Of a DNA stretch of 64,000 nucleotides, positions 11,343 to 25,750 are shown piece by piece. The position numbers were made by a program, and so were the translations under genes. A model generated the notes under the pieces. It was given only the letters and a program-made list of their open reading frames with translations. It was not told the DNA's origin and made no database searches. The first letter of the stretch is position 1, and every line of letters begins with the position of its first letter. Origin of the DNA: Caballeronia turbans (GTDB taxonomy: Bacteria; Pseudomonadota; Gammaproteobacteria; Burkholderiales; Burkholderiaceae); contig FCOD02000010.1 of NCBI GenBank assembly GCA_001544655.2, forward strand, positions 124,001 to 188,000. The letters run 5' to 3'.

Positions 11343-11455
11343 ATCACGACTTCGTCGTTCGATGACGAAGCAAGGACAGGCGCGACGACGCGTGCGTCAT
11401 ACGTGCAGGTGCATCGGACCGTCGTGTCTGCGATGCACGAATCCAACGGAGATGA

Positions 11456-11776
11456 ATGATGAAGATGCTCTTTATTGCGGCAACGCTGTTTTCCACGGCG
11501 CTCGTTGCAACGACGGCGCAGGCGCAGACAGGCGAGCCGCTGACGCGCGCGCAGGTGCGTTCCGAACTGGTCGAACTGACGCACGCCGGCTATTCGCCGG
11601 CGTCGGAAGACGCGAGCTACCCGAGCAGCATTCAGAGCGCCGAAGCGCGCGTGGCGGTGCATGACGGCGCAAATGCGTCGGGTAGCGGATACGGCCCTTC
11701 GATCGCCGGCACGCGACAGTCCGGCGGTTCGGCGGGCACGGGCAGCCAGGGAAAGGATATTTTCTTTGGCCAGTGA
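11456..11776 (+). CDS. DUF4148 family small exported protein
   Basis: A 106-residue exported protein. The signal peptide (KMLFIAATLFSTALVATTAQA) is followed by GEPLTRAQVRSELVELTHAG and a YSPASED segment, the hallmark of DUF4148. This family is abundant in Burkholderia-group genomes and its function is unknown. Adjacent ATG codons at 11456 and 11459 are both possible starts. The C-terminal half is Gly/Ser-rich and probably disordered. Confidence 0.82.
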   Translation: MMKMLFIAATLFSTALVATTAQAQTGEPLTRAQVRSELVELTHAGYSPASEDASYPSSIQSAEARVAVHDGANASGSGYGPSIAGTRQSGGSAGTGSQGKDIFFGQ

Positions 11777-11933
11777 CCGCCCTCGCCGCCCTCGCCGCGC
11801 TCGCCACCGATGGCGGCGGGCGCAGGCATCCAGACGCGACGCGCGATCAGGTCGCCCATCCGAAAGGAATGCGCGGCTGGCTGTTGAATCGCCTCGATGG
11901 GACATCGAATACTTCGCGCGAAAAAGGACAGGC

Positions 11934-14900
11934 CTACGGCTTCGACAGAAAATCGAGCAGCGCCTTGCTCGGAATGAAGAAGTACCCGCCGCCGATCAGC
12001 TTCGTCAGATCCGGCAAATCGGGCAGGCGCACCGGTCCGTCCGACGTCGGAATGCTGAAGCTGCGGCCCGGGCCGCGCCCGACGATCGGATCGACTTCGT
12101 ATTCCATCGCCTGCAGGCTCGAATTGAGCAGCCACGTCTTCTGAACGAACTCGAATTGCCGCTCGATATCGCCGTTCACGCACATGAAGAACACGCCGAG
12201 CCGCTTGTTCTCGTCCAGTTGCCAGCACTTGTTCTTGTCGAGATCGCCGAAAACCCGGCTCACGCGCAACATGCGATGCCGGTTCACCGAGGCGATCTCC
12301 TCCTTCGATCCGGGAAAGCGCGTGTCGCGCGGATTGGCCCGGCGAATGTGGGCGCCAAACGGACAGCCATGCCCGGCCGGGTCTTCCTCGCCGCACATGA
12401 AATCGTTGTCGGGCGTTCTGCCGTGAGGGCCGCCCACGCGGGCCGGCGGCGTGCCGTGCCGCACGAGCGACGAGCCGTCTTTCCATCGGCCGAAAAACTT
12501 CCCGAAGAGCACGGTCTTGAGGTCGTCACGCGTTTTGACGTGGGAGAACGTCGGAATGGCCGCGGAAATCGGGAAGTCCGGCGTGCCCGGTGAAGGCACG
12601 GGCGACCCGGGATGGATGCGGATGCCCGTGCTCTCGTACCAGGTGTTGAAAGCGCGGAGGTCCTGTTCGTATTGCCGCACGACCAGAAATGTCCCGTTCA
12701 GGCCGAGGTCGCGTCGCCCCGACGACGCATAGCGTGCGAAGTCGGGACGCACGCGCGCCCGATCGACGCCCGCATCCGGAAGCAGATGATGCGGATCACA
12801 AGACGCTGGAATGGTGGGTCCGGGCGGAATCACGCCGAGGTTATCCGGATAGCCGAGGATCAGCTCGCCGGGTTCCACGAGATCGTTCTCGTCGTGCGCG
12901 CGGTTGCGCTGCGGCGCGCCGCGCATGACGGGCTGCGAGATGCCATCCATGAAGCCGAATGGCTCGCTGCCGCCGATCCCGCACGCCTTTTGACCGGAGC
13001 GGTCGCGCAATTGCGTCAGCGGTTGATGGTAGGCGCAGGTGTGGCCATTCGCCGAGATTGCCAGGCGCACGGTGGTCTCCAGCGTCATCAGATCCGACGG
13101 GTCCAAGCCATACGCGAGCACGAGCACATCCGGATTCGTGCGCGGGCCGCCCCACGCCCATTTCGTCGGCTCGTTGCCGTGGATGTCGCCAAGTTCCCGC
13201 GCGCGGTCCGGCGTGCTCATTCCCTGCTTGAACGCGAGCGGAAACGTTTCGATGGCCTCGCGCGGCAAGCCGAGCAGCTTCAACGCGCGCGCCGAGAAGC
13301 CGATCGCGAGCGCGGTGTTCATCTGCTTGTGAGCCGTGCCGTAGACGGCGAGATCGCGCAGTGCCGCGACGAATGCCTTGCAGTTCGCCTCGTTCTTCGA
13401 GAGCGACACCACGAAGGCGCTCGCACAGCGCATTCTCGACAGGCCGCCGAACGCGAGCGTCGATATCTGCGCGACCTGCAGCGAGGGCGCCGGCCGCGGC
13501 GTGGAGCCGAACAGCGCGAACCAGTCGATACTGTCCTGATTCGTTCCCGCAGTCGCGAAGCCCTCGTGAATCTGCGAATTGATGCGGATGCGCGATGCGC
13601 TCAGGTTGCGGTAGGCCGCGTACCAGAACGGCGTGGGAATCTGCTGCCGGCGCGCCCAGCGCACCGTGCGGTCGCCGTCGGTCGCGCCGGCGCTGATGAT
13701 GCCCCGCGTTCTCGGAAAGCCGATGCAGTTGCTCCAGATGCCCGTGACGCCCTCGGGCGCATCGGCGATGAAGTCGGCGACATACGACTCCCATGTGCCG
13801 TCGTAGTTCGACCAGAAGACGAGCTGATCGGTGCACGGAAGCCGCATCCAGCGCGCGGAATGGATGACCCCGTTCTTGCCGAGGAAGCCGAGCCTGTTCA
13901 CGTAGCCGGCGGCGCCCACGCCGATGAACGCGAGGCGCAACGTCAGGCAGCGCAGGATGCCGGGTTTGAGACGCGACACCGTCAACATATGATTCTGCTG
14001 CCCGAAATTCTCCTTCGCGAGCAGCAGTCCGCCCTGCCTCGCCGACACGATGCGCTCATCGACGAAATCGGTCGCGCCGAGCATGTTGAGCCGCCACAGC
14101 GAGAGACCGAGCACGAGCGCGAGCGTCAGAAGCACGAGGAACAGCGTGGTCGCGGTGCACATGACGGCCACGAAAGTCGGCAACTGGCGCGAGAAATAGA
14201 CGTTCGCGCCCATTCCAATGATCACGAGCGGCACCCAAAGCGGCCAGACCATGTTGTGGAAGCTCCGCAAGATCGCCTTGACCGCCTTAGGATTTCTTGG
14301 CAGTGATCCGACCTCTTCCTCGGCTTCCGTCGGCAAAGCCACTTCAGGCACGAACGCCCACTTCCAGGGGCGCCCCCTGGAGAGCCAGACCGTGCGGCGC
14401 ACGAGCGCGAGCTGCTCCAGCGGTGAGAGCGAATACCAGCCCGGCTTGTTCTGCTCCTGCCCGATGACCTCGCGCAGCTTCTTCGCGAGATCGCGCTCGC
14501 GCGCGATGCGATCGGCGGTCAGGCCCGGCGAACCGCTGAACACCTGGCCGAGCGCGCTGAACCGCCATTTCGCGCTGATCCTGACTTCGTACGAAAGCAG
14601 AAGATCGAGCATGCCGGCGCGCGAGAGAGAAGGCTCGGCCGCGTCGAGGACGGTTCTCAACGGCGCGCAAAAATGCTCGGCGAGCTCCGCGAGCACGACC
14701 CGCGATCCGTAGTCCGACGTGATTTCAATCACCAGATGCGCCGCCTTGTTCGTCGGCCGCGAGGGTTTGAGACTCGGGGCCACGTCGGATTCGGAAGGAC
14801 ACAGCGTGTCGATCACGCCGAGGCTCATGAAGTGCAGGCCTCGCACCTTCCTCAACAGTTTGCGGATGTCGCGCTTCGGATAGTTGCCCCGCGTTTCCTC

Positions 14901-14987
14901 CGTCAGCGACCGGATGGCCGCGTTGACGTTGTCGACGTTGAGCGGATCGAACGGAACGACAATGTTGATGAAAGCGGGCGAACTCAT
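11934..14987 (-). CDS. Very large DyP-type haem peroxidase with an N-terminal membrane-anchored domain
   Basis: A 1017-residue protein whose C-terminal half, from about residue 520, is a DyP (dye-decolourising) peroxidase. The domain start LQVAQISTLAFGGLSRMR is followed by the GFMDGIS form of the catalytic GxxDG motif (Asp681) and the proximal-haem motif AHIRRANPRD (His880). The first ~520 residues are unusual for the family. They comprise a ferredoxin-like segment beginning FINIVVPFDP, two transmembrane helices at about 246-265 and 272-297, and a linker. The ATG at 14987 overlaps the stop of the upstream P450 gene (ATGA), so translation is coupled. A role in peroxide-driven oxidation together with the P450 is inferred. 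Ordinary DyP proteins have 300-450 residues. Confidence 0.9.
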   Translation of the reverse strand: MSSPAFINIVVPFDPLNVDNVNAAIRSLTEETRGNYPKRDIRKLLRKVRGLHFMSLGVIDTLCPSESDVAPSLKPSRPTNKAAHLVIEITSDYGSRVVLAELAEHFCAPLRTVLDAAEPSLSRAGMLDLLLSYEVRISAKWRFSALGQVFSGSPGLTADRIARERDLAKKLREVIGQEQNKPGWYSLSPLEQLALVRRTVWLSRGRPWKWAFVPEVALPTEAEEEVGSLPRNPKAVKAILRSFHNMVWPLWVPLVIIGMGANVYFSRQLPTFVAVMCTATTLFLVLLTLALVLGLSLWRLNMLGATDFVDERIVSARQGGLLLAKENFGQQNHMLTVSRLKPGILRCLTLRLAFIGVGAAGYVNRLGFLGKNGVIHSARWMRLPCTDQLVFWSNYDGTWESYVADFIADAPEGVTGIWSNCIGFPRTRGIISAGATDGDRTVRWARRQQIPTPFWYAAYRNLSASRIRINSQIHEGFATAGTNQDSIDWFALFGSTPRPAPSLQVAQISTLAFGGLSRMRCASAFVVSLSKNEANCKAFVAALRDLAVYGTAHKQMNTALAIGFSARALKLLGLPREAIETFPLAFKQGMSTPDRARELGDIHGNEPTKWAWGGPRTNPDVLVLAYGLDPSDLMTLETTVRLAISANGHTCAYHQPLTQLRDRSGQKACGIGGSEPFGFMDGISQPVMRGAPQRNRAHDENDLVEPGELILGYPDNLGVIPPGPTIPASCDPHHLLPDAGVDRARVRPDFARYASSGRRDLGLNGTFLVVRQYEQDLRAFNTWYESTGIRIHPGSPVPSPGTPDFPISAAIPTFSHVKTRDDLKTVLFGKFFGRWKDGSSLVRHGTPPARVGGPHGRTPDNDFMCGEEDPAGHGCPFGAHIRRANPRDTRFPGSKEEIASVNRHRMLRVSRVFGDLDKNKCWQLDENKRLGVFFMCVNGDIERQFEFVQKTWLLNSSLQAMEYEVDPIVGRGPGRSFSIPTSDGPVRLPDLPDLTKLIGGGYFFIPSKALLDFLSKP

Positions 14988-16231
14988 GACGATTTCCCCG
15001 GAATCCGGACGACGAGGTGCCGAGGAAAGATCGACTTCGGCCACCGCTGGAGGCGGCCGGCGCATCCTTGCGCGCGTTCGAGACCGGGCTGCATCACGAG
15101 CGGCTTGAATGTCTGGACGAGCTGCGCCTGCGCGATGAACGCCCCGACGCACCAGTGAAGGCCCAGCCCGAATTGCAGCCGGTCCGCGGCAGGGCGCCCC
15201 GGCGTGAACACGTAGGGTTGCTTGACCCGGCTGCGATCGAACATGGCCGACATCGTGCAGGCGAGCACGAACGTGCCCTCGCGGATGCGCTTCCTGCGCC
15301 AGGAATTCGCGGCGACGACATAGTCCTTCTCGCACACGCGAAACGGACCGTAATTGATCGGCTTGTAGCGCAACGCCTCGAAGAGACATTGTCCGAGCAA
15401 GGTTTCGTCGCCCGACAGAGCCGCCGCGCGCGTCATTCTGAGCATCCCGCCCGTGCGCAACATCATCTCGAGGATATGACCGCCCGCGATGGTGGTCGTC
15501 GGCACGAAGCCGACGATCAACCCGAGCAGAAACGCGCGCACCTCGGTGTCACGGCTCTCCTCGCGCATGAGCCGGCCCATCACCGTCGTCGGTTTCGGGG
15601 GAACGCGCCGCGCGGCGCGGATCGCATCGTCGACCACCTCGCGCACGATGTCCGCCATCGCGTCCACATGCGGTTTCTGAACGATCGGCGGCGGCCCGAA
15701 CAGGTGTCCGCTCAGACAGACGAGCGCTTCGGTGAAAGACCGGCGGTCCCCGACCGGCACGCCGAGGTATTCGACGCAAATGTCGAGCGGAACGTCCGTG
15801 ATGAGCTTCTCGATCGCGTCGAGCTCGCCGCCCGTCGCCGCGCCGACGGTCCTGCTCGCGTGCCGCCGCGCGATCTCGCCGACGGTCTCCACATCGTCGA
15901 GTCTGAATACATGCATCAGCCGGACGAGCTGCTCGTCGTGAGCGCTCTTGTCGTCCGTGCCGAGGATGAACGGCGTGCCGGGCCACGATCCGTCCGCGAG
16001 CCGCGTCATCTCCCCGGCGAACGGCACCTTGAAGATGTCCGGGCGCGAGAGCACTTCTTCCACGTCCTCGCGCAACAGGACGGCCGCATAGCGGAACAAA
16101 CCCGGGATCGGCCAGAGGTAGCGCAGCACGCCCAACAGATACTGCAGCGGCGGAACGTAACGCACCGGCGCGGGGCGCCGCGACGAGAGCCTCGGGCTCC
16201 TTTCGCCGGACTCGAAATCGACGTGGGGCAT
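14984..16231 (-). CDS. Cytochrome P450
   Basis: Soluble cytochrome P450 of 415 residues. The haem-thiolate loop FGLGLHWCVG places the axial ligand at Cys361, and the K-helix ExxR appears as EALR. The I-helix segment reads GFVPTTTIAGG: where most P450s have an acid-Thr pair for O2 activation, this one has Pro-Thr. That suggests altered proton delivery or peroxide use. The ATG at 16231 follows an AAGGAAGG ribosome site. The stop overlaps the start of the DyP peroxidase gene. No ferredoxin or ferredoxin reductase gene is nearby. Substrate unknown. Confidence 0.92.
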   Translation of the reverse strand: MPHVDFESGERSPRLSSRRPAPVRYVPPLQYLLGVLRYLWPIPGLFRYAAVLLREDVEEVLSRPDIFKVPFAGEMTRLADGSWPGTPFILGTDDKSAHDEQLVRLMHVFRLDDVETVGEIARRHASRTVGAATGGELDAIEKLITDVPLDICVEYLGVPVGDRRSFTEALVCLSGHLFGPPPIVQKPHVDAMADIVREVVDDAIRAARRVPPKPTTVMGRLMREESRDTEVRAFLLGLIVGFVPTTTIAGGHILEMMLRTGGMLRMTRAAALSGDETLLGQCLFEALRYKPINYGPFRVCEKDYVVAANSWRRKRIREGTFVLACTMSAMFDRSRVKQPYVFTPGRPAADRLQFGLGLHWCVGAFIAQAQLVQTFKPLVMQPGLERAQGCAGRLQRWPKSIFPRHLVVRIPGKSS

Positions 16232-16303
16232 GTTGCCTTCCTTCTTGTTGCAAACGACGTCCAAACGCGAGCGCCATCATGCGCCGCCCGCTCCCGTCAT
16301 CGA

Positions 16304-19300
16304 TCACAGATTGGCGATGTGGCACGCACCTCCGACACGGGTCTCCAGAATCGCGCGGGCGCGGCGCAGGTCGGGAAGGTCATGAGCGTCGTCGAACGAG
16401 GCGGCGAGCAGCCTCAACTGATCTGCCGCGTCGGTCGTGGCGTCCGGTGCGCACGCGCCCTGCTCCATCAGCTCGCAACGGGCGCGCAGCTCCCACAGCT
16501 TCGCGCCTTGCCCCACCGCCACCGCGCAGGCGCGCCGGAACGCCTCGAGCGCGGCGGCTTCGTCGCCACGCGCGCGCAGCAGCACGCCATGCACGCGATG
16601 AAGCTCCGCTTCGTCCCAGCGCTGGCCGGTCGCCCGCGTGATCGCGAAGGCCTCGTCGAGCAGACGCAACGCCGTGTCGGTTTCGCCGACCCAGCCATGC
16701 GCCTGCGCCGACATTCGCAGGAAGCCCGACAGATACAGCACGGTCTCGGTCGCGCGATAGGCGTCCATGCCCCGCGTCAACGCCGCGAGCGCATCGTCGC
16801 GCGCGCCGATCGCGGCGAGACAGTAGCCCCGGAAGATCGCCTCGACCGCGTGGTAATACGCGATGCCGCTGTCCGCGATCGCGGTAGCGAGCTCGTCCAG
16901 CCGCTGCAGGCCGGCCTGCGGCGAGATCACGGTCAGCGCGACGAACGATGCGCCCACCAGCGCGTGCGCGAGCGTATAGACATGCCCGATGCGCCGCCCC
17001 TGCGCGACCGCCTCGCCGCTGGTGCGGATCGCCTCGGCGAGCCTGCCCGCGCACATCTGCGACCACGACATGTACGTCAGCATCACGACGCGCGGATCGT
17101 CGACCGTCATCGACGCATAAAGCGCCTGCTGCGCCGGGTCGTAGAGCGCGATGCCGGTTTCGAGCTGGCGAATGGCGTCGCCGAAATGGCCCATCGGATG
17201 ACAGGTCACGCCGCTGAACCGATAGCCCATGAGGCGCCACAGCGGATCCTGCCGCGCCTCGCCGCGCGCGAGAATTTCCGCGGCCTGAGCCCGCGCCGAC
17301 GCGAAGTCGGCGCGCATGAGCGCATGAGTCCACAGGCCGTGCAGCACGGCGAGCAGCGGCGGCGGATCGCCGAGCATCTCGCACAGGGCGCGCGCGCGGG
17401 CAAACGTCTCTCCGGTGCCGGCGGCGGCATAGCCCTGCGTGGCGATCTGCGCCATGCCGATGCAGATGGTCAGCGCGAGTTCGTTCTGCAATCGCCACGG
17501 CGAGCGCTCCATCGTCGAGACGAGCAGGATGCCGCGATTCAGATGCTCCAGCGCTTCCACCATCGCCGAGCGGCGCAGCGCGCTGCGGCCCGCCGCGAGC
17601 CACTGGACGACCGCCTTCTCGACGATACGCGCCTCCGTGTAATGCCACGCGAGGATTTCGGGCTGGTTGGCGACCGCATCCGCGAAATGCGCTTCCAGCG
17701 CGCCGGCGATGCGCTCATGCAGCGCGCGGCGCGTATCGCGGCCGATGATCTCGTAGGCCGCGTCGCGGATCAGCGCGTGCTTGAACGTGTATGCGGGCTC
17801 GGACGCCGCGCGTCGCAGCACGATGCCGAAGTCCACCAGCCGGTCGAGCGCCGGGCCGAGATCCTTGCCGGGCTTGACGACGAGTTCGAGCAGATGCACC
17901 GGGAAGTCGCGTCCGATCACGGCTGCCGCTTCGAGCACTTCGCGCGCGGCGCCCAGCCGGTTGAGCCGCGATTGCAGCGACGCGCGCAGCAGCATCGGCA
18001 GGGGCTTGCCTTCGAGACTGCCGACGGCGGCATCCGGCCGGGCCGCGCCCTCGACGGTCGCGCGGGTCAGTTCTTCCAGGAACAGCGGAATGCCGTCGGT
18101 GCGCAGCACGATGTTCCTGACCGTTTCGGCGGGCAGCGCCTGGTCGGCCGCGACGTGACGCACCAGCGCGGCGCTGAGCAACGCAGGCAAGGGACCGAGA
18201 AAGAGGCGCGTGACACCCGGAACGCTGTCGAAGTCGGTGAAGCTGCCGGGGCGCATCAGCACGAGCAACATGACCGGCATGCGCGGCACCATGTCCGCGA
18301 CCATCAGCACGAGTTCGCGCGAGGTATCGTCGATCCACTGCACGTCCTCGAACACGATGAGCGCCGGCAGATTCGTCGCCGAGCGCCGGAGCCATGCCAC
18401 GAGCGCCTGCATGGTCCGGCGGCGCTTCGCGCTCGGGCTGAGCGACCTGGTGCCGGCGACCTCGCGCCCCGGCAGATTCAGCAGGTCCGCGATCAATGCG
18501 CGATCCTCCACGGGCAGGTCCGTGAGCACCGCGTCGAACTTCGCGAGCTTGTCATCGACGGAATCGGACGCGGCGAAACCGGCGGCGTGTTCGATCTGCT
18601 GGATGCATGGACGCAGCGGCGAGCCCTGCCGGTAAGGCGAGCAAAAATAACGATAGATGCCCGACGGCTCCGCGCGGGCTTCGTCGAGCAACGCCGCGGC
18701 GAGACGCGACTTGCCGATGCCCGCATCGCCCGTGACGACTGCGATTTGCCCGTGCCCCGCGCGCGCCTGCTGCCAGAGCCGCAACAGTGTGCGGTGCTCG
18801 TCGTCGCGGCCGAGCATCGGCGAGAGCTTCGGGTTGCCGCGCGCCTCGAAGCGGCTCGCGACGGCAATCGCGCCGGCCACGCGCCAGGCGCGCATCGGTG
18901 CGGCGAGACCCTTTATCGCGAGCGGGCCGAGATCGCGGAAATCGAAGAGATCGCCCGCCAGGCGCCGGGTGGCGTCGTCGACGATCACGGAATTCGCCTG
19001 GGCCTGGCCCTGCAACCGCGACGCGATGTTGGGCGCGTCGCCCATCGCCGCCGGCCCCTCCGACTCCTCCGCTTCCGCGACGACCACGAGCCCGGTCGAT
19101 ACGCCGAGGCGCACGCCGAGCTGAGGCAGGCCCGCGAAACTGATCGCGCAGACCGCTTCGACCGTTTTGAGCGCGGCGTGCACGGCGCGTTCGGCATCGT
19201 CCTCGTGCGCTTCCGGATAGCCGAAATAGACGAGCGTGCCGTCGCCCCGGTAGCGCTCCACGCGCCCGCCGAACTGCGTCATGCTCCGGTTGACGGCGCC

Positions 19301-19585
19301 GCGATACGCCAGCAGCACTTGTCGGTAGTCCTCGGGATCGAGCTCATCCGACAGCGCCGTGGACCCGATCAGGTCACAGAAGACGAAGGTGATCTGGCGA
19401 CGCTCGACGCAGGCGTCCGACACCGTGCCGGCGCCATAGCTCGCGCCGCATTGCGGACAGAAGCGGGCCTGGCGCGGGCGCGCCGCGCCACAGCACGCGC
19501 AATGCGCGCGCGCCGTGCGACGCGACGCGGCGGTGCAATTGCAGCCGACCGCGGTCACGGCGCCGCCGCACCAGGCGCATCTCAC
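16304..19585 (-). CDS. Class III adenylate/guanylate cyclase fused to AAA ATPase and TPR-like repeats
   Basis: A 1093-residue signalling protein. Residues 1-47 contain Cys pairs (CAWC, CACC, CPQC) likely to bind zinc. A class III cyclase domain spans about 60-235 with metal-binding Asp71 (FCDLIGST) and Asp115 (RGDG), and transition-state Asn186/Arg190 (GDAPNIASR). Arg111 occupies the usual purine-selecting Lys position. An AAA/STAND-type NTPase follows, with Walker A GDAGIGKS at 286-293 and Walker B-like LIVFEDVQWID. The C-terminal ~500 residues are alpha-helical TPR/MalT-like repeats. It is encoded just upstream of the P450-peroxidase pair and probably senses or regulates it through cyclic nucleotide. 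A cNMP-binding LuxR regulator lies 5 kb away. Confidence 0.88.
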   Translation of the reverse strand: MRCAWCGGAVTAVGCNCTAASRRTARAHCACCGAARPRQARFCPQCGASYGAGTVSDACVERRQITFVFCDLIGSTALSDELDPEDYRQVLLAYRGAVNRSMTQFGGRVERYRGDGTLVYFGYPEAHEDDAERAVHAALKTVEAVCAISFAGLPQLGVRLGVSTGLVVVAEAEESEGPAAMGDAPNIASRLQGQAQANSVIVDDATRRLAGDLFDFRDLGPLAIKGLAAPMRAWRVAGAIAVASRFEARGNPKLSPMLGRDDEHRTLLRLWQQARAGHGQIAVVTGDAGIGKSRLAAALLDEARAEPSGIYRYFCSPYRQGSPLRPCIQQIEHAAGFAASDSVDDKLAKFDAVLTDLPVEDRALIADLLNLPGREVAGTRSLSPSAKRRRTMQALVAWLRRSATNLPALIVFEDVQWIDDTSRELVLMVADMVPRMPVMLLVLMRPGSFTDFDSVPGVTRLFLGPLPALLSAALVRHVAADQALPAETVRNIVLRTDGIPLFLEELTRATVEGAARPDAAVGSLEGKPLPMLLRASLQSRLNRLGAAREVLEAAAVIGRDFPVHLLELVVKPGKDLGPALDRLVDFGIVLRRAASEPAYTFKHALIRDAAYEIIGRDTRRALHERIAGALEAHFADAVANQPEILAWHYTEARIVEKAVVQWLAAGRSALRRSAMVEALEHLNRGILLVSTMERSPWRLQNELALTICIGMAQIATQGYAAAGTGETFARARALCEMLGDPPPLLAVLHGLWTHALMRADFASARAQAAEILARGEARQDPLWRLMGYRFSGVTCHPMGHFGDAIRQLETGIALYDPAQQALYASMTVDDPRVVMLTYMSWSQMCAGRLAEAIRTSGEAVAQGRRIGHVYTLAHALVGASFVALTVISPQAGLQRLDELATAIADSGIAYYHAVEAIFRGYCLAAIGARDDALAALTRGMDAYRATETVLYLSGFLRMSAQAHGWVGETDTALRLLDEAFAITRATGQRWDEAELHRVHGVLLRARGDEAAALEAFRRACAVAVGQGAKLWELRARCELMEQGACAPDATTDAADQLRLLAASFDDAHDLPDLRRARAILETRVGGACHIANL

Positions 19586-19817
19586 GGAGACTCCCCTTCG
19601 GGCGCGACGCGCTTGCCGCCGCGCGCCTTCAGACGCACGTCATCGTACGACGCAGGCATGATTCGATCAGCGCGCAAGGAGGCCTCCATTCTGGTGAACG
19701 AGACTCGTGAACCCTTCTGAAAACCGGGATCAGCGTGCGCCGATTCTTCTCATCGTCTGTTTCAGATTATTACAAAGCTGCGAACAAGACAATCTGCCAA
19801 GGTCTGCGTGAGGCCCC

Positions 19818-20543
19818 TCAAAACCGGTATCCGACGCGCAGATACGTGATGATCGGATTGAGCGTGATCTTCGCCTCGGCCTTGCGCGTCAGCGTGCCGA
19901 CAGGCGTCTGCGACTGCGTGGTGAACGTGCCCGTCGTGCTTTGCGGGATGAATGAAACCGAAAAGCCGGCGAACCAGTGGTCCGAAAACGCATACGTGGC
20001 GCCGACGTTGAATACCGGCGACCAGACCGTGCTTGCTTCCGCCGTCGTCGGGCCACCGAGCGCGCGGGCCTCGAAATCGCCGTTCGTGATCTTCGCGTTG
20101 CTGAAGGACGTGCGCGTCACGCCGATGCCGACATACGGCCTGAATTTCGATTGCGGCGCGAGAAAAAAGTACTTGAAAAGGAGCGCCGGGCTCCACTCGC
20201 GGACGGTGCCGAGCTTGCCGTATCTCGACAGCGCGCCGGTGCCGTTCACGTCGAACTCCGGCGGCACGCCGAACTCGAATTCCGCCGCGATGTGGTCGGT
20301 AATGAAGTAGCCGACGGTGAAGCCGGCGGTATCGGCGCTCGACACGCCCGCGCCGGTATTGGGCACGGTGATGTTGACCGGATTGCCGCCGACCGACGTG
20401 ATCTTGAGCGGGTCGCTGCTGTCCTGCGGCGCGAGGTGGAACCAGCCCGCCGTGGCGAAGAAGCTTCCCGCCGACTGCGCATGACTCGCGGTGGCAAGGC
20501 ACAGGGCCGTGGCGGCCGCGCCGGCCGTTCGAATTCCATTCAC
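19818..20543 (-). CDS. ompW: OmpW family outer membrane protein
   Basis: A 241-residue outer membrane beta-barrel precursor. A signal peptide ends near SHAQSAG. The body follows the OmpW eight-strand pattern (GWFHLAPQDSSDPL, FRPYVGIGV, FSDHWFAGFSVSFIP) and ends in an aromatic residue (LRVGYRF), as required for barrel assembly. OmpW-family proteins admit small hydrophobic molecules. The start is supported by an AGGAGGAG ribosome site. It lies in a same-strand block with the hydrolase, cyclase, P450 and peroxidase genes, which would suit import or export of a hydrophobic substrate or product. Confidence 0.93.
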   Translation of the reverse strand: MNGIRTAGAAATALCLATASHAQSAGSFFATAGWFHLAPQDSSDPLKITSVGGNPVNITVPNTGAGVSSADTAGFTVGYFITDHIAAEFEFGVPPEFDVNGTGALSRYGKLGTVREWSPALLFKYFFLAPQSKFRPYVGIGVTRTSFSNAKITNGDFEARALGGPTTAEASTVWSPVFNVGATYAFSDHWFAGFSVSFIPQSTTGTFTTQSQTPVGTLTRKAEAKITLNPIITYLRVGYRF

Positions 20544-20634
20544 TTTGCACTCCTCCTAAAGCCACATCGACCGAAAAGGACGTCGTACTGTTCGCCCGCG
20601 CGGGCGTGGTGCGAAAGCGGCCGCCGCCTGCTGT

Positions 20635-22617
20635 TCACGTGCGAGATCGGAACATGCGCCAGCGGCGTGGCGCGGCGTCGTGCCTGCCGCGCCACGCGTG
20701 CATCGCCTTAAGCGCCACTGCATGGCGAATGTAGCGATGCCAGATGAAAGCCAGATCGAACACCAGCACGCCGAGCCGCCATACATACACAAAGAAGAAG
20801 CCCGCGAGCACCAGCGGCCAGATCGGCTTTTGCGGGGGCGCCTCCATGAAACGCCAGACGATGCCGGCGGCGAGCAGGACCGTTGCGCTGCCGACCAGCA
20901 TCCAGCCGCCGAGCACCGGCCTGCGCGGCGCGATCCAGCCCGACAGGCTGACCAGCGCCGCGATCGCCACGAGCAGGAGGTTGCCTTCGGGCGCATGCAG
21001 ACTGCCCGCGAGAAGCGCGAACTCGCGGCCGATCCAGAACCCCGAGACCGGTTCGACGAGAAAGTTCGACACCTTCGGGTCCAGGTAATACAGGCACGGC
21101 CACGCGCCGCACAGAAACGCGACCAGCGCGAGCGCCCACCATCGCGGGTGCGTCCATTTGACGAGACGCGGCAGCCGGCCCGACACGGTGACGCCCGCCA
21201 GAAGCAGGCTCAGGCACAGCACGGAGCGCACGATGCCCCGATAGGCGGCGGCGTCCACGAACTCGAATGACGCGAGCGTCGCCTTGAAGAGCAGGAAGAC
21301 GGCGAGCACGTGCGTCAGGTAGGCGACCACATAGGGAATGGCCGTGCTGACGATGCCGACGATGCGCCTCGTCGGCGGCGGCGGTGCCTTGCGCGCCGAC
21401 GCGGGACGCGCCTCGGGCAGCACGACGTCATCGATGAAATGCGCGAACACGGCGTCGTCGCTCCAATAGCCGACGTGCGCGGCGCCCGGCACCCAGTAGC
21501 GGCTGAATCCGAAGTCGTCGTACTTCGTGAACTGGAATGCGCCGCACCGGTGCTCTTTCAGATACTCGCGCGCCGTGTCCAGTTCGAAGCCGACCGGATC
21601 GCCGTAATCGTAGTAGTTTCGCCACTTGATCGGCTTCGGCAGCACGAGCGGATGATTGCGTTGCGAGCCGAGCATGGAGACCTGCGCGTCCGGGCGCTGC
21701 TGCCTGAAATTGTCGGAGGCGAGGTCCAGCGGGTCCCAGAGCTTCGGCCACAGCAGGATGTGCTTGTCGATCGGCGAGCCGAACGTCATGAAGCCGCGCA
21801 CGCAGGTGATCCAGTCCGTGGGGACCGTCGTCGCTTGCGGGCCGGGACTTTTCGCGTCGCTGGACGAGAGCGCCTGAAGCAGCGCCAGAAACGCGATGAT
21901 GCTGCCCTCGCTATGCGCGACGATATGAATCTCGGGATCGCGGCTGATGCCGGGATACGCGGCGTGGAACCATTCGATGATCGTCTGCATCGCCTTGTGA
22001 AAGCGAAAGAGGATCACCTGGCGGTAGTACTGGAATTCGGCGATGAGCTGAACGTCGCTGTAGTAGTCGCGCAGCAGCTCGGGCAGCTTGAAATCGAGCA
22101 GGCCGAGTTGCGACGGGAGATACAGCAGCTTTTCCAGCACGGCGAAGGTCCCGATCTCCTCTTCGACGATGCCCGCGACCTGCGAGAAATCCTTCGGGGT
22201 GAGTTGGGCCTTCCAGCCCGAACGCTTCGCTTCCTGTTCGACGCGCGTGTAGAGCGCGCGCACGCGGCTGAGGACGGTCCGGCCCCAGGCCTTGCTTTCC
22301 TCGAGCGTATCGTCCTGCTTCACGAGATCGCGCGGCACATCGGCCCAATACACTTCGGCGAAGCCGATGCGCGCGAGCGGGTCCTTGTTGGGCACGTCGA
22401 GGCGGCTCACGCACACTTCCCCGACGCTGCCGAGATTGAAGTAGCCGAGCGACAGCACCGGCAACGGCGGCTTGTCGAGCGCGCCGAAGCGATGGACGGC
22501 CGCGCGGATGGATTCGCTTCGCAGAGCGGGCCCGATGCCGTGGACGGCCACGACGATCTTGTCCATCACTGGAGCAGGGGCGGCGCCAAGCGGGGCAAGG
22601 CCAGGTTGAATCTGCAT
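20635..22617 (-). CDS. Membrane-anchored alpha/beta hydrolase
   Basis: A 660-residue protein. The N-terminal half is an alpha/beta hydrolase: the oxyanion-region strand VVAVHGIG is followed by a nucleophile elbow AHSEGS with Ser236 (first Gly replaced by Ala, as in some lipases). The C-terminal part from about residue 415 has five or six hydrophobic segments (for example LLLVAIAALVSLSGWIA), so the enzyme is held in the inner membrane. Specificity cannot be read; lipid or ester hydrolysis is most likely. It is the first gene of the minus-strand block that ends with the P450 and DyP peroxidase and may feed them a fatty substrate. An internal ATG (MDKIVVAV) at 22566 is an alternative start. Confidence 0.82.
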   Translation of the reverse strand: MQIQPGLAPLGAAPAPVMDKIVVAVHGIGPALRSESIRAAVHRFGALDKPPLPVLSLGYFNLGSVGEVCVSRLDVPNKDPLARIGFAEVYWADVPRDLVKQDDTLEESKAWGRTVLSRVRALYTRVEQEAKRSGWKAQLTPKDFSQVAGIVEEEIGTFAVLEKLLYLPSQLGLLDFKLPELLRDYYSDVQLIAEFQYYRQVILFRFHKAMQTIIEWFHAAYPGISRDPEIHIVAHSEGSIIAFLALLQALSSSDAKSPGPQATTVPTDWITCVRGFMTFGSPIDKHILLWPKLWDPLDLASDNFRQQRPDAQVSMLGSQRNHPLVLPKPIKWRNYYDYGDPVGFELDTAREYLKEHRCGAFQFTKYDDFGFSRYWVPGAAHVGYWSDDAVFAHFIDDVVLPEARPASARKAPPPPTRRIVGIVSTAIPYVVAYLTHVLAVFLLFKATLASFEFVDAAAYRGIVRSVLCLSLLLAGVTVSGRLPRLVKWTHPRWWALALVAFLCGAWPCLYYLDPKVSNFLVEPVSGFWIGREFALLAGSLHAPEGNLLLVAIAALVSLSGWIAPRRPVLGGWMLVGSATVLLAAGIVWRFMEAPPQKPIWPLVLAGFFFVYVWRLGVLVFDLAFIWHRYIRHAVALKAMHAWRGRHDAAPRRWRMFRSRT

Positions 22618-22931
22618 CTGTTATTCACTTGTCTGCGCAGGCCCGATGGACTTTGATAATCCGGCGGAATCCGCCATCGAGCTTCGCTTTCAACCTGCAC
22701 GGACGCTTTTTTTAAAAGCGCCACCCGGAGTAATACGGATATCTAAACTCCTCTCGCGATAATATGCAGCGCCGGTGTTCGGTGAAAAAAATCCGGTGGG
22801 GGTTTTATGCTTGCTTTAACGTAGGTTGTGGGTGGGTGAAAGTCAAGATGGGCCTCCGTACCGCGCGAAGGAGCGTCGAACCATGAAAACGGCCGATCGT
22901 GCGGAGCCGGGAAAAGACCCGAGAAACCCGT
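22618..22931. other. Upstream region of the hydrolase gene
   Basis: Non-coding, with an AT-richer stretch around 22700-22820 that presumably carries the promoter of the minus-strand block. It holds a perfect 7-bp inverted repeat, CGCTTTT and AAAAGCG around TTT at 22704-22720. Otherwise I see nothing. Confidence 0.45.
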
Positions 22932-24631: not shown

Positions 24632-25672
24632 TCAACCTTCGCGCAGCTTGTCGGCCTGCAGCCGCCCCACGATGAGCCGGAGCAGATGCAGCGCGAATTC
24701 CGGCTCCTGATAGTAGAGCCGGATCGCATCGGCGGCGCAGACCGTGCGCATCTCGCATTCGGTCTTGCACACGGCGGTCGACGTACGTCGATGCCCCGGC
24801 GAGAACAGCCCGATTTCGCCGAGCACGCTGCCCGCGCCCAGTTCGATCCCGATCTCGCTCAGTGTCACCGTGCCCTTTTCGACGTAGAAGAGTTCGCCGC
24901 TCGCATCGCCCTTGCGGAACAGGACCTCGCCCGCGCGATACCGCTGGCTCTCCATGTTGGCGAGCAGCCTGCCGAGCGATACCTGGCCGTCGATCGCGCG
25001 CGCGACCTGCGTCTCGCGCACGCGCTCCATGCGCGCGGCGGCCGCGCTCGCCTCGCCGCGGCTCGCGACGTTGAGCGCCTTGAAGATCGTCGTGAGATGC
25101 GTCTTGACCGTGGCCTCGGCGCAGTCGAGCTCGCGCGCGATCATCTTGTTCGAGCGGCCGCGCGCGAGCAGCGCGAGCACTTCGATCTGTCGCGGCGTGA
25201 GGCGCGCGTGGGCATCGGCGTTCGGAGATGCTTCGCCGCGATGCGCGGGCGTGGCACGAATGGAGGATGGCACGGGGGCGACGGGGTTCCCGGCGAGGAA
25301 TGCGCGCGGAAAGTACACGCCGCCCGCGAGCGCGACCCGCAACGCGCCGAACAACATGTCGGCCGACGCGGATTTTTCGACGCAGCCAGCAACGCCGTCG
25401 GCGATCAGGCCGTCGATGTCGGCCTTCTGCGCGGCGCCAAGCAGCACGACCAGCGGTATCGCGCGCGCCTGTTCGCGCAGTGCTCCGTGCTCGGCGGCTG
25501 ACTGGCGCAGCGCGTCGCCGTCCATTACGATGCAGTCGGGCTTCGGGTCATCGGAGATCGAGCCAGCGAGACCGTCGCGCACGCACACCTCGACATCCGC
25601 GGCGTAAAGGCGCAAGAGCGACGCGACGCCTTCGCGAAACAGTCCTGCCGGTCCGGTGAGCAAGAGCTTCAT
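24632..25672 (-). CDS. Response-regulator-like LuxR protein with C-terminal cyclic-nucleotide-binding domain
   Basis: A 346-residue regulator with three parts. A NarL-type receiver covers about 1-120: Asp51 in IVMDGDAL is a possible phosphoacceptor and Lys100 is present, but the N-terminal acidic pocket is lost, so it may be non-phosphorylated. A LuxR helix-turn-helix covers about 156-205 (LTPRQIEVLALLARGRSNKM). A Crp-like cNMP-binding barrel covers about 230-346, with a phosphate-cassette-like GEIGLFSP...RRTSTA. This order, receiver-HTH-cNMP, is unusual because Crp proteins carry the HTH last. The ATG at 25672 was chosen because it begins the receiver fold (MKLLLTG). A class III cyclase is encoded 5 kb away. 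Confidence 0.85.
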   Translation of the reverse strand: MKLLLTGPAGLFREGVASLLRLYAADVEVCVRDGLAGSISDDPKPDCIVMDGDALRQSAAEHGALREQARAIPLVVLLGAAQKADIDGLIADGVAGCVEKSASADMLFGALRVALAGGVYFPRAFLAGNPVAPVPSSIRATPAHRGEASPNADAHARLTPRQIEVLALLARGRSNKMIARELDCAEATVKTHLTTIFKALNVASRGEASAAAARMERVRETQVARAIDGQVSLGRLLANMESQRYRAGEVLFRKGDASGELFYVEKGTVTLSEIGIELGAGSVLGEIGLFSPGHRRTSTAVCKTECEMRTVCAADAIRLYYQEPEFALHLLRLIVGRLQADKLREG

Positions 25673-25750
25673 GACGTTCGCTTCGCACGGAAAGTTCGGA
25701 CTCTGGCAGGCAGTGAGGCGTGCGCTGCGCACGCGCTCTGGAAGAACATC

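Follow-up and report, generated by a model that had tools for sequence, protein, structure and literature searches.

What task could tie a peroxidase of the DyP family to a cytochrome P450 in bacteria, and is the tie more than an accident of gene order? The question is raised by a locus of Caballeronia turbans (contig FCOD02000010.1), in a stretch of 64 kb hereafter denoted the window. Here, five minus-strand genes occupy positions 11934–22617, and the stop of a P450 gene (14984–16231) overlaps the start of a gene for a long DyP protein (11934–14987) in the tetranucleotide ATGA (14984–14987). A sequence-only reading had pointed out the five same-strand genes and the overlap, and both stand as described. 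Given the recurrence of the two genes side by side, we are nearly certain that the DyP protein and the P450 form a functional unit.

Recurrence of the DyP-P450 pair

The DyP searches covered 61, 399, 369 and 299 genomes (overlapping sets), the last three at an E-value of 1e-20 with at most two candidates per genome, such that weaker relatives were missed. All 37 DyP loci were inspected, and the 27 in which DyP is accompanied by a domain that we denote U (see below) were counted; eight loci with DyP but no U (L026–L033) and two at contig ends (L025, which contains DyP and a P450, and L046) were dropped. Among these 27 U-DyP loci, 16 encompass a P450 (six of them in one frame with U-U-DyP), eight a catalase-like protein, three neither, and none both. 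The P450 is encoded on the same strand as U-DyP in all 16 loci, with a single patatin gene in between in L085 and L143. In Pararhizobium, Novosphingobium and Sulfitobacter (L090, L091 and L092, respectively), the annotation treats the fused form as one gene, and the laboratory strain Novosphingobium aromaticivorans DSM 12444 has a natural fusion, SARO_RS19865. A single-sequence scan of genome contigs gave one locus.

When searched from the P450 side, 18 of 398 genomes of the phylum contain relatives, with DyP in the same row or fused in 15 of the 18; the other three genomes have low-scoring P450s that belong to a neighbouring branch of the P450 tree. Among plasmids, 66 records have a DyP match, and the 10 that were inspected comprise four with a P450, three with a catalase-like protein and three with neither. 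A P450 match is present in 18 plasmid records (five inspected via this match), in 11 of which DyP lies beside the P450 by coordinates, in three a haem peroxidase does, and in four no such neighbour was seen (two of these by coordinates only). In the viral_contigs set, all four loci read U-U, DyP, P450, and we take these loci to be bacterial DNA. Thus, the central proposal of the sequence-only reading, a functional DyP-P450 pair resembling certain fungal enzymes, stands up to the adjacency check that this reading set: the two share a row in 16 of the 27 U-DyP loci and in 15 of the 18 P450-bearing genomes, and the DyP tree has 10 fused proteins among its 53 rows. This wide pairing in the phylum, together with the recurrence of the five-gene block in a second genome, is more than chance.

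Two Rhizobium plasmids (L089 and L111) present another arrangement, in which U-U-DyP without a P450 adjoins peptidase- and nuclease-type genes; the peroxidase seems to serve another purpose there.

The partner P450s lack the oxygen-activating pair

The window P450 (14984–16231, minus strand; 415 amino acids; Pfam E-value 2.5e-5) starts at an ATG behind AAGGAAGG. The cysteine ligand is found in FGLGLHWCVG, and the I-helix reads GFVPTTT where the acid-threonine pair normally sits. Among the DyP-linked P450s, this O2-activating pair (Asp/Glu-Thr) is absent in all 29 aligned rows, the cysteine ligand is kept, and proline occupies the place of the threonine in 27. The 10 comparison rows (two P450s that adjoin haem peroxidases, two from the window's genome and six others, including an identical pair; both groups include near-copies) all keep the pair, as ETT or ETM, and none has the proline.

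P450 peroxygenases are devoid of the acid-threonine pair (excerpt of PMC10988616), and the P450 domains of fungal 9-allene oxide synthases (9-AOS), parts of 9-dioxygenase-AOS (9-DOX-AOS) fusions that isomerise hydroperoxides, have (V/A)PxT or TPxG at the I-helix site, according to the excerpt of PMC13049297. The gene tables of L090, L091, L092 and L094, which are incomplete, show neither a ferredoxin nor a ferredoxin reductase in the vicinity of the P450. We consider it quite probable that P450s of the window type use peroxide rather than the O2/NAD(P)H cycle, because the acid-threonine pair is missing, as in the peroxygenases and the fungal 9-DOX-AOS, and no ferredoxin partner is listed.

Assignment to the CYP152 family was considered and rejected. 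CYP152s, such as OleT and P450BSbeta, carry Arg-Pro at the I-helix place. This arginine, Arg245 in OleT, binds the substrate carboxylate; in contrast, V, A, G, L, I or P precedes the proline in all 27 Pro rows here. No CYP152-named entry appears among the matches listed (60 of 586 solved sequences).

A divergent DyP domain behind two copies of an undescribed domain

The partner of the P450 is a protein of 1017 amino acids (11934–14987, minus strand) that starts at the ATGA. The sequence-only reading put it at three times the usual size of a DyP; it is about twice that size, the open reading frame of 1151 amino acids running back into the P450 gene. The TIGR01413 model covers residues 526–1008 (11964–13412, minus strand) with an E-value of 3e-19, at 69.5 bits, below the curated cut-off of 100.5 bits. 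The Pfam search found no DyP match in the long DyP, and the PF04261 search of the genome picks another gene instead. Solved DyP structures align with the domain, the best being 8re3 ('Peroxidase, putative'). The catalytic aspartate (in GFMDG), histidine (proximal, in GAHIRRANPRD) and arginine (in RMLRV), the last of which we take to be the distal arginine of the DyP site, are all in place and do not vary among 14 aligned relatives. A distal aspartate and arginine and a proximal histidine are the DyP residues named in the excerpt of PMC4420034. Compared with the standard DyPs of TIGR01413, the window protein shares the domain and the three catalytic residues but has an additional U-U and membrane part, and judging from its sequence it is a divergent DyP-domain protein rather than a standard member, given that the TIGR01413 cut-off is missed.

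In the long DyP, two U copies and a membrane segment come first and are followed by a DyP domain of ordinary make; the ~500 additional residues do not belong to the peroxidase. U is a unit of roughly 150 residues that is present twice in the first 500: a degenerate copy 1 at about residues 21–235 (14283–14927, minus strand) and copy 2 at about residues 320–500 (13488–14030, minus strand), with the motif IHSARW...FWSNYDGTWESYVADF; among relatives, the motif is IHFARW ... LVFxSNYxGSWESYLEDFI. Between the copies lies a hydrophobic segment or hairpin (residues 268–305; 14073–14186, minus strand), and at least one hydrophobic segment is found in this part in all 14 aligned proteins. In other loci, stand-alone U genes of ~200 codons adjoin the DyP genes, and profile comparison with these stand-alone proteins gives probabilities of 96.4% for copy 1 and 99.7% for copy 2, compared to 1.2% for the two copies directly with each other.

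The possibility that U is a copy of one half of DyP is unsupported (probabilities of 0.11 to 0.34%), although the method is blunt, the DyP halves matching each other at 0.13% and the U copies at 1.2%, so that a distant kinship could escape it. Comparison of U with Pfam and with sequences of solved structures in the PDB gave chance-level matches only. An AlphaFold model of the N-terminal 530 residues is poor (mean pLDDT 40.5), and no fold is claimed for U. The U domain represents a family still to be described.

Catalase-like proteins as alternative partners

In the loci where a catalase-like protein takes the place of the P450, its family is barely recognised by Pfam (E-values of 0.0016 and 0.00084 for two of three proteins, no match for the third). 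A profile of 12 such proteins matches 3e4w best (4.4e-9), followed by 1u5u, an allene oxide synthase-lipoxygenase (1.5e-8), and by catalases from 5.4e-8, these E-values being close; 3e4w is, we presume, the Mycobacterium avium minicatalase that uses organic peroxides. In the 10 aligned proteins, the proximal tyrosine is present throughout, and the position of the distal histidine is occupied by asparagine in six, glutamine in one and histidine in three. On plasmids of Sphingobium and Roseomonas (L093 and L112), closely alike cassettes of catalase-like, U and DyP genes have transposase genes nearby, and such a cassette on plasmids of different genera is perhaps a mobile unit.

In the DyP tree of 53 rows, a starred branch (100/98) sets the 46 DyPs of the module apart from the seven ordinary ones of the genus, and the window DyP belongs to a starred clade of 16 rows that includes all 10 fused proteins of the tree. 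The catalase-like partner calls for five changes on the best tree and three on starred branches, and fusion for two or one, indicating that partners were exchanged a few times. The lack of any locus with both partners has a hypergeometric probability of 7e-5, ignoring kinship. The plasmid locus L110, outside the 27, combines a catalase-like protein with an ordinary P450 that has ferredoxin and reductase genes.

The five-gene cassette of Caballeronia

Apart from the P450 and the long DyP, the block consists of three genes. HYD (20635–22617, minus strand; 660 amino acids) is a probable membrane alpha/beta hydrolase, as it was termed in the sequence-only reading: the motifs, HGIG at residue 26 and HSEGS (within AHSEGS) at 235, and several hydrophobic segments between residues 419 and 627 speak for this assignment, and searches of Pfam, NCBIfam and solved structures, which gave nothing above chance, do not add to it. 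The next gene (19818–20543, minus strand; GTG start behind GGAGGAG) encodes an OmpW-family outer-membrane beta-barrel of 241 amino acids (PF03922, 5.5e-23). The third (16304–19585, minus strand; GTG start behind GGGGAG) encodes a class III nucleotidyl cyclase of 1093 amino acids in which Pfam identifies Guanylate_cyc, AAA_16 ATPase and TPR domains (TPR_12 under its cut-off). As a TOMM kinase/cyclase (TIGR03903), this protein was rejected, with 427.7 of 705.75 bits and model positions 1–271 unmatched; its cyclase domain alone weakly matches PycC of the Pycsar systems (best E-value 1.2e-9), and no effector match was found among the four window proteins scanned. Purine-rich ribosome sites precede three of the five starts, and a fourth start overlaps the preceding gene. 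Two overlapping promoter-like sites upstream of HYD (22759–22788, minus strand) are the only minus-strand ones of the region, a weak signal from a motif scan (three sites on both strands vs 1.5 expected in shuffles).

The long DyP is found over its full length in two of 58 Caballeronia genomes, that of the window and C. megalochromosomata (G030), and the two have the five-gene block in common; two further genomes of the genus (G1072 and G1082), with matches to the DyP end, were left outside the locus counts. The shared DNA extends from 11445 to 22788, in blastn pieces of 82, 90 and 91% identity, its outer end coinciding with that of the promoter-like sites, and comparison of the 64-kb window with the C. 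megalochromosomata locus (L034, with 7.9 kb upstream and 0.8 kb downstream) gave no match beyond these bounds. This speaks against the five-gene scheme of the sequence-only reading: all five genes were found together in the window genome and one other only. Both cassette-bearing genomes have a second HYD, 49% identical to the first. HYD-like membrane proteins, in frames of ~650–800 residues, form a family represented in 21 of the 58 Caballeronia genomes, the window's genome having two copies (G000:C54:345260-347170).

Among the 27 U-DyP loci, 11 have a cyclase gene no more than 6 kb from the module, two on the opposite strand (a raw count without a base rate). In each of the eight fusion loci scanned, the gene before the fusion encodes a related TPR protein, whether or not a cyclase domain is recognised in it, and five loci have CRP-type cyclic-nucleotide regulators nearby. 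In the window, a gene for a LuxR-type helix-turn-helix protein with a cyclic-nucleotide-binding domain (24632–25732, minus strand) lies 2 kb upstream of the block, outside the shared stretch; this regulator could respond to the cyclase.

Lipid-related genes near the module

For the neighbourhoods of the module, 76 of 230 listed open reading frames from the 27 loci were scanned, a few by annotated coordinates, and some were examined singly. The gene order U, U, DyP, patatin phospholipase, P450, FadL occurs in two genomes, both from a single genus; in L137, a Tle1-like phospholipase gene adjoins the module on the opposite strand; and on the Sphingobium and Roseomonas plasmids mentioned above, the catalase-like, U and DyP genes face an operon with oleate hydratase. 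The idea in the sequence-only reading of a lipid that is released and transported gains from the patatin and FadL found with U, DyP and P450 in one other lineage, but loses in that its own hydrolase and OmpW are not general.

In the neighbouring branch of the P450 tree, P450s of Sinorhizobium medicae and Rhizobium etli are each directly followed by an animal-type haem peroxidase with the sequence YRWH, which we take to be the dioxygenase tyrosine/proximal histidine motif, and R. gallicum has a third such pair. Tyr385 and His388 of cyclooxygenase are conserved among dioxygenases, according to the excerpt of PMC13049297. Such a P450 with a cyclooxygenase-like haem peroxidase (YRWH) behind it, in the rhizobial plasmid loci L105, L108 and L151, represents the pairing of the fungal PpoA type in the form of two bacterial genes. 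A further locus (L074:7523-16284, genome G784) encodes on one strand an animal-type haem peroxidase with YRLH, a catalase-like protein (Gln), U-U, DyP and another catalase-like protein (Asn), four haem-protein-type genes in what appears to be one operon.

Relationship to known two-enzyme systems

The fungal dioxygenase-P450 fusions (linoleate diol synthases, PpoA and DOX-AOS), which produce lipid signals, likewise combine a haem peroxidase with a P450, and the P450 has an HxC ligand without the usual O2-activating pair (in the excerpt of PMC13049297), as does that of the window (FGLGLHWC, GFVPTT). The fungal peroxidase, however, has the cyclooxygenase fold, whereas here it is a DyP, with PF03098 unmatched; DyPs belong to the chlorite-dismutase superfamily (PMC4420034, as excerpted). 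The fungal enzyme is a single polypeptide, compared to two overlapping genes in the window that are fused in some relatives; and, unlike in the fungal proteins, the P450 comes first here, and two U domains and a membrane segment intervene. The module would work like the fungal enzymes but is not one of them, because the first partner has another fold.

The alternation of P450 and catalase-like partners is mirrored by the coral allene oxide synthase-lipoxygenase and by the Nostoc 10S-dioxygenase with its catalase-related lyase, in which the catalase fold stands where other systems use a P450 (excerpt of PMC13049297). The catalase fold and proximal tyrosine of the catalase-related allene oxide synthases and hydroperoxide lyases are shared by the catalase-like partner, but those systems start from a lipoxygenase or dioxygenase and the present one from U-DyP; furthermore, cAOS has His67 (excerpt of PMC5617202), as opposed to Asn in six and Gln in one of the 10 catalase-like proteins aligned here. 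The open-access literature searched, which leaves out most subscription papers, yielded neither a DyP-P450 pair nor a fusion of the two. The excerpted part of a review of the haem peroxidase superfamilies notes that linoleate diol synthases are fused to a P450 and gives no such fusion for DyPs (PMC4420034), and for Caballeronia zhejiangensis, a P450 and a DyP on different contigs are reported in the excerpt of PMC13210998.

A proposed mechanism and its alternatives

We propose that the core of the system is a membrane-anchored two-haem oxidative enzyme, encoded by two overlapping genes in the window and by a single gene in certain relatives. With peroxide and/or O2, its U-U-DyP half would oxidise a hydrophobic, probably fatty-acyl, substrate to a product that is a peroxide or a radical. 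The P450 half, needing no redox partner, would then split and rearrange the O-O bond or, acting as a peroxygenase, draw on the same peroxide. In the cassette, HYD might free the substrate, OmpW might pass the substrate or the product across the outer membrane, and the cyclase/ATPase/TPR protein might control the system via a cyclic nucleotide. The lipid substrate, the order of steps, the dispensability of a redox partner and the roles of the hydrolase, OmpW and cyclase are what we infer, and we give the whole scheme, lipid peroxide included, about an even chance. A more specific version, which we advance tentatively and expect to be wrong rather than right, is that these are bacterial two-haem oxylipin synthases of a new class, with U-U-DyP as a membrane-bound fatty acid oxygenase under cyclic-nucleotide control that channels its peroxide to a P450 that is self-sufficient, the P450 being replaced in sister lineages by a catalase-like protein often devoid of the distal histidine.

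Several observations weigh against these proposals. We know of no DyP that acts as a dioxygenase or fatty acid oxygenase; since DyPs are not known as dioxygenases, formation of a hydroperoxide by one would be a new activity. The lipid context is confined to few lineages (patatin with FadL to two genomes of one genus), and most of the neighbours scanned are unrelated to lipids. U-DyP is accompanied by neither partner in the three of 27 loci noted above and in three of the 10 plasmid loci inspected (L089, L109 and L111). The distal histidine is kept in five of the 12 catalase-like proteins, including those of L110 and L112, and an independent-pairs test of P450 vs catalase-like partners has too few pairs (three to five switches) to reach significance. 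The proline motif is not a mark of pairing with a haem peroxidase as such, because ETM is retained in the P450s that neighbour the YRWH peroxidases. As for the five-gene scheme, 19 of the 21 genus genomes with HYD relatives have no long DyP; given also that the cassette is found in two genomes of one genus, HYD and OmpW are members of the cassette, not obligatory parts.

The intact DyP site, and a P450 that resembles the peroxygenases in lacking the acid-threonine pair, would equally fit two H2O2-driven enzymes side by side, a P450 peroxygenase and a one-electron DyP acting on hydrophobic or aromatic compounds, with peroxide as the common factor and no lipid hydroperoxide intermediate. We consider such an arrangement unlikely, albeit a serious contender: replacement of the P450 by a catalase-like protein, with Asn for the distal histidine in six of 10, would be unexpected if only a peroxygenase could serve as the partner, and phospholipase, FadL and oleate hydratase are found in a few loci. 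That DyP and the P450 or catalase-like protein both destroy lipid hydroperoxides of other origin appears quite improbable. P450s and catalase-related proteins do act on fatty acid hydroperoxides elsewhere (excerpts of PMC13049297, PMC10813956 and PMC5617202), but for detoxification one peroxidase would suffice, the fusion suggests channelling, and neither a lipoxygenase nor an animal-type haem peroxidase was found in the window's genome as a source of such peroxides, in searches without a positive control.

A regulated conflict or self-damage effector, in which the cyclase/AAA ATPase/TPR protein senses a threat and triggers an oxidative attack on the membrane of the cell itself or of a competitor, would account for the AAA, TPR and cyclase architecture and for the weak Pycsar-cyclase matches, and is in line with the peptidase- and nuclease-type genes around the Rhizobium-plasmid U-DyP without P450, a TIR gene near L073 and a subtilase gene adjoining the L136 fusion. 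We nevertheless regard it as very unlikely, considering that a PADLOC search gave no match for DyP, P450 or HYD and that the TPR or cyclase-TPR gene before the fusion in all eight scanned loci is a signalling layout that needs no toxin.

Implications

The module joins a peroxidase of the DyP fold to a P450, with partner P450s that are devoid of the usual oxygen-activating residues. For most DyPs, the physiological substrates are not known; here, one clade is linked with a specific partner and, in a few lineages, also with genes for lipid handling, which makes the function testable. If the proposed mechanism is true, soil, plant-associated and marine bacteria would make oxylipin-like products by a route unlike those of lipoxygenase and cyclooxygenase. 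If the more specific oxylipin-synthase version is true, an enzyme that makes a peroxide would have been combined with a P450 or catalase partner for a third time independently, after the systems based on lipoxygenase and on the cyclooxygenase fold.

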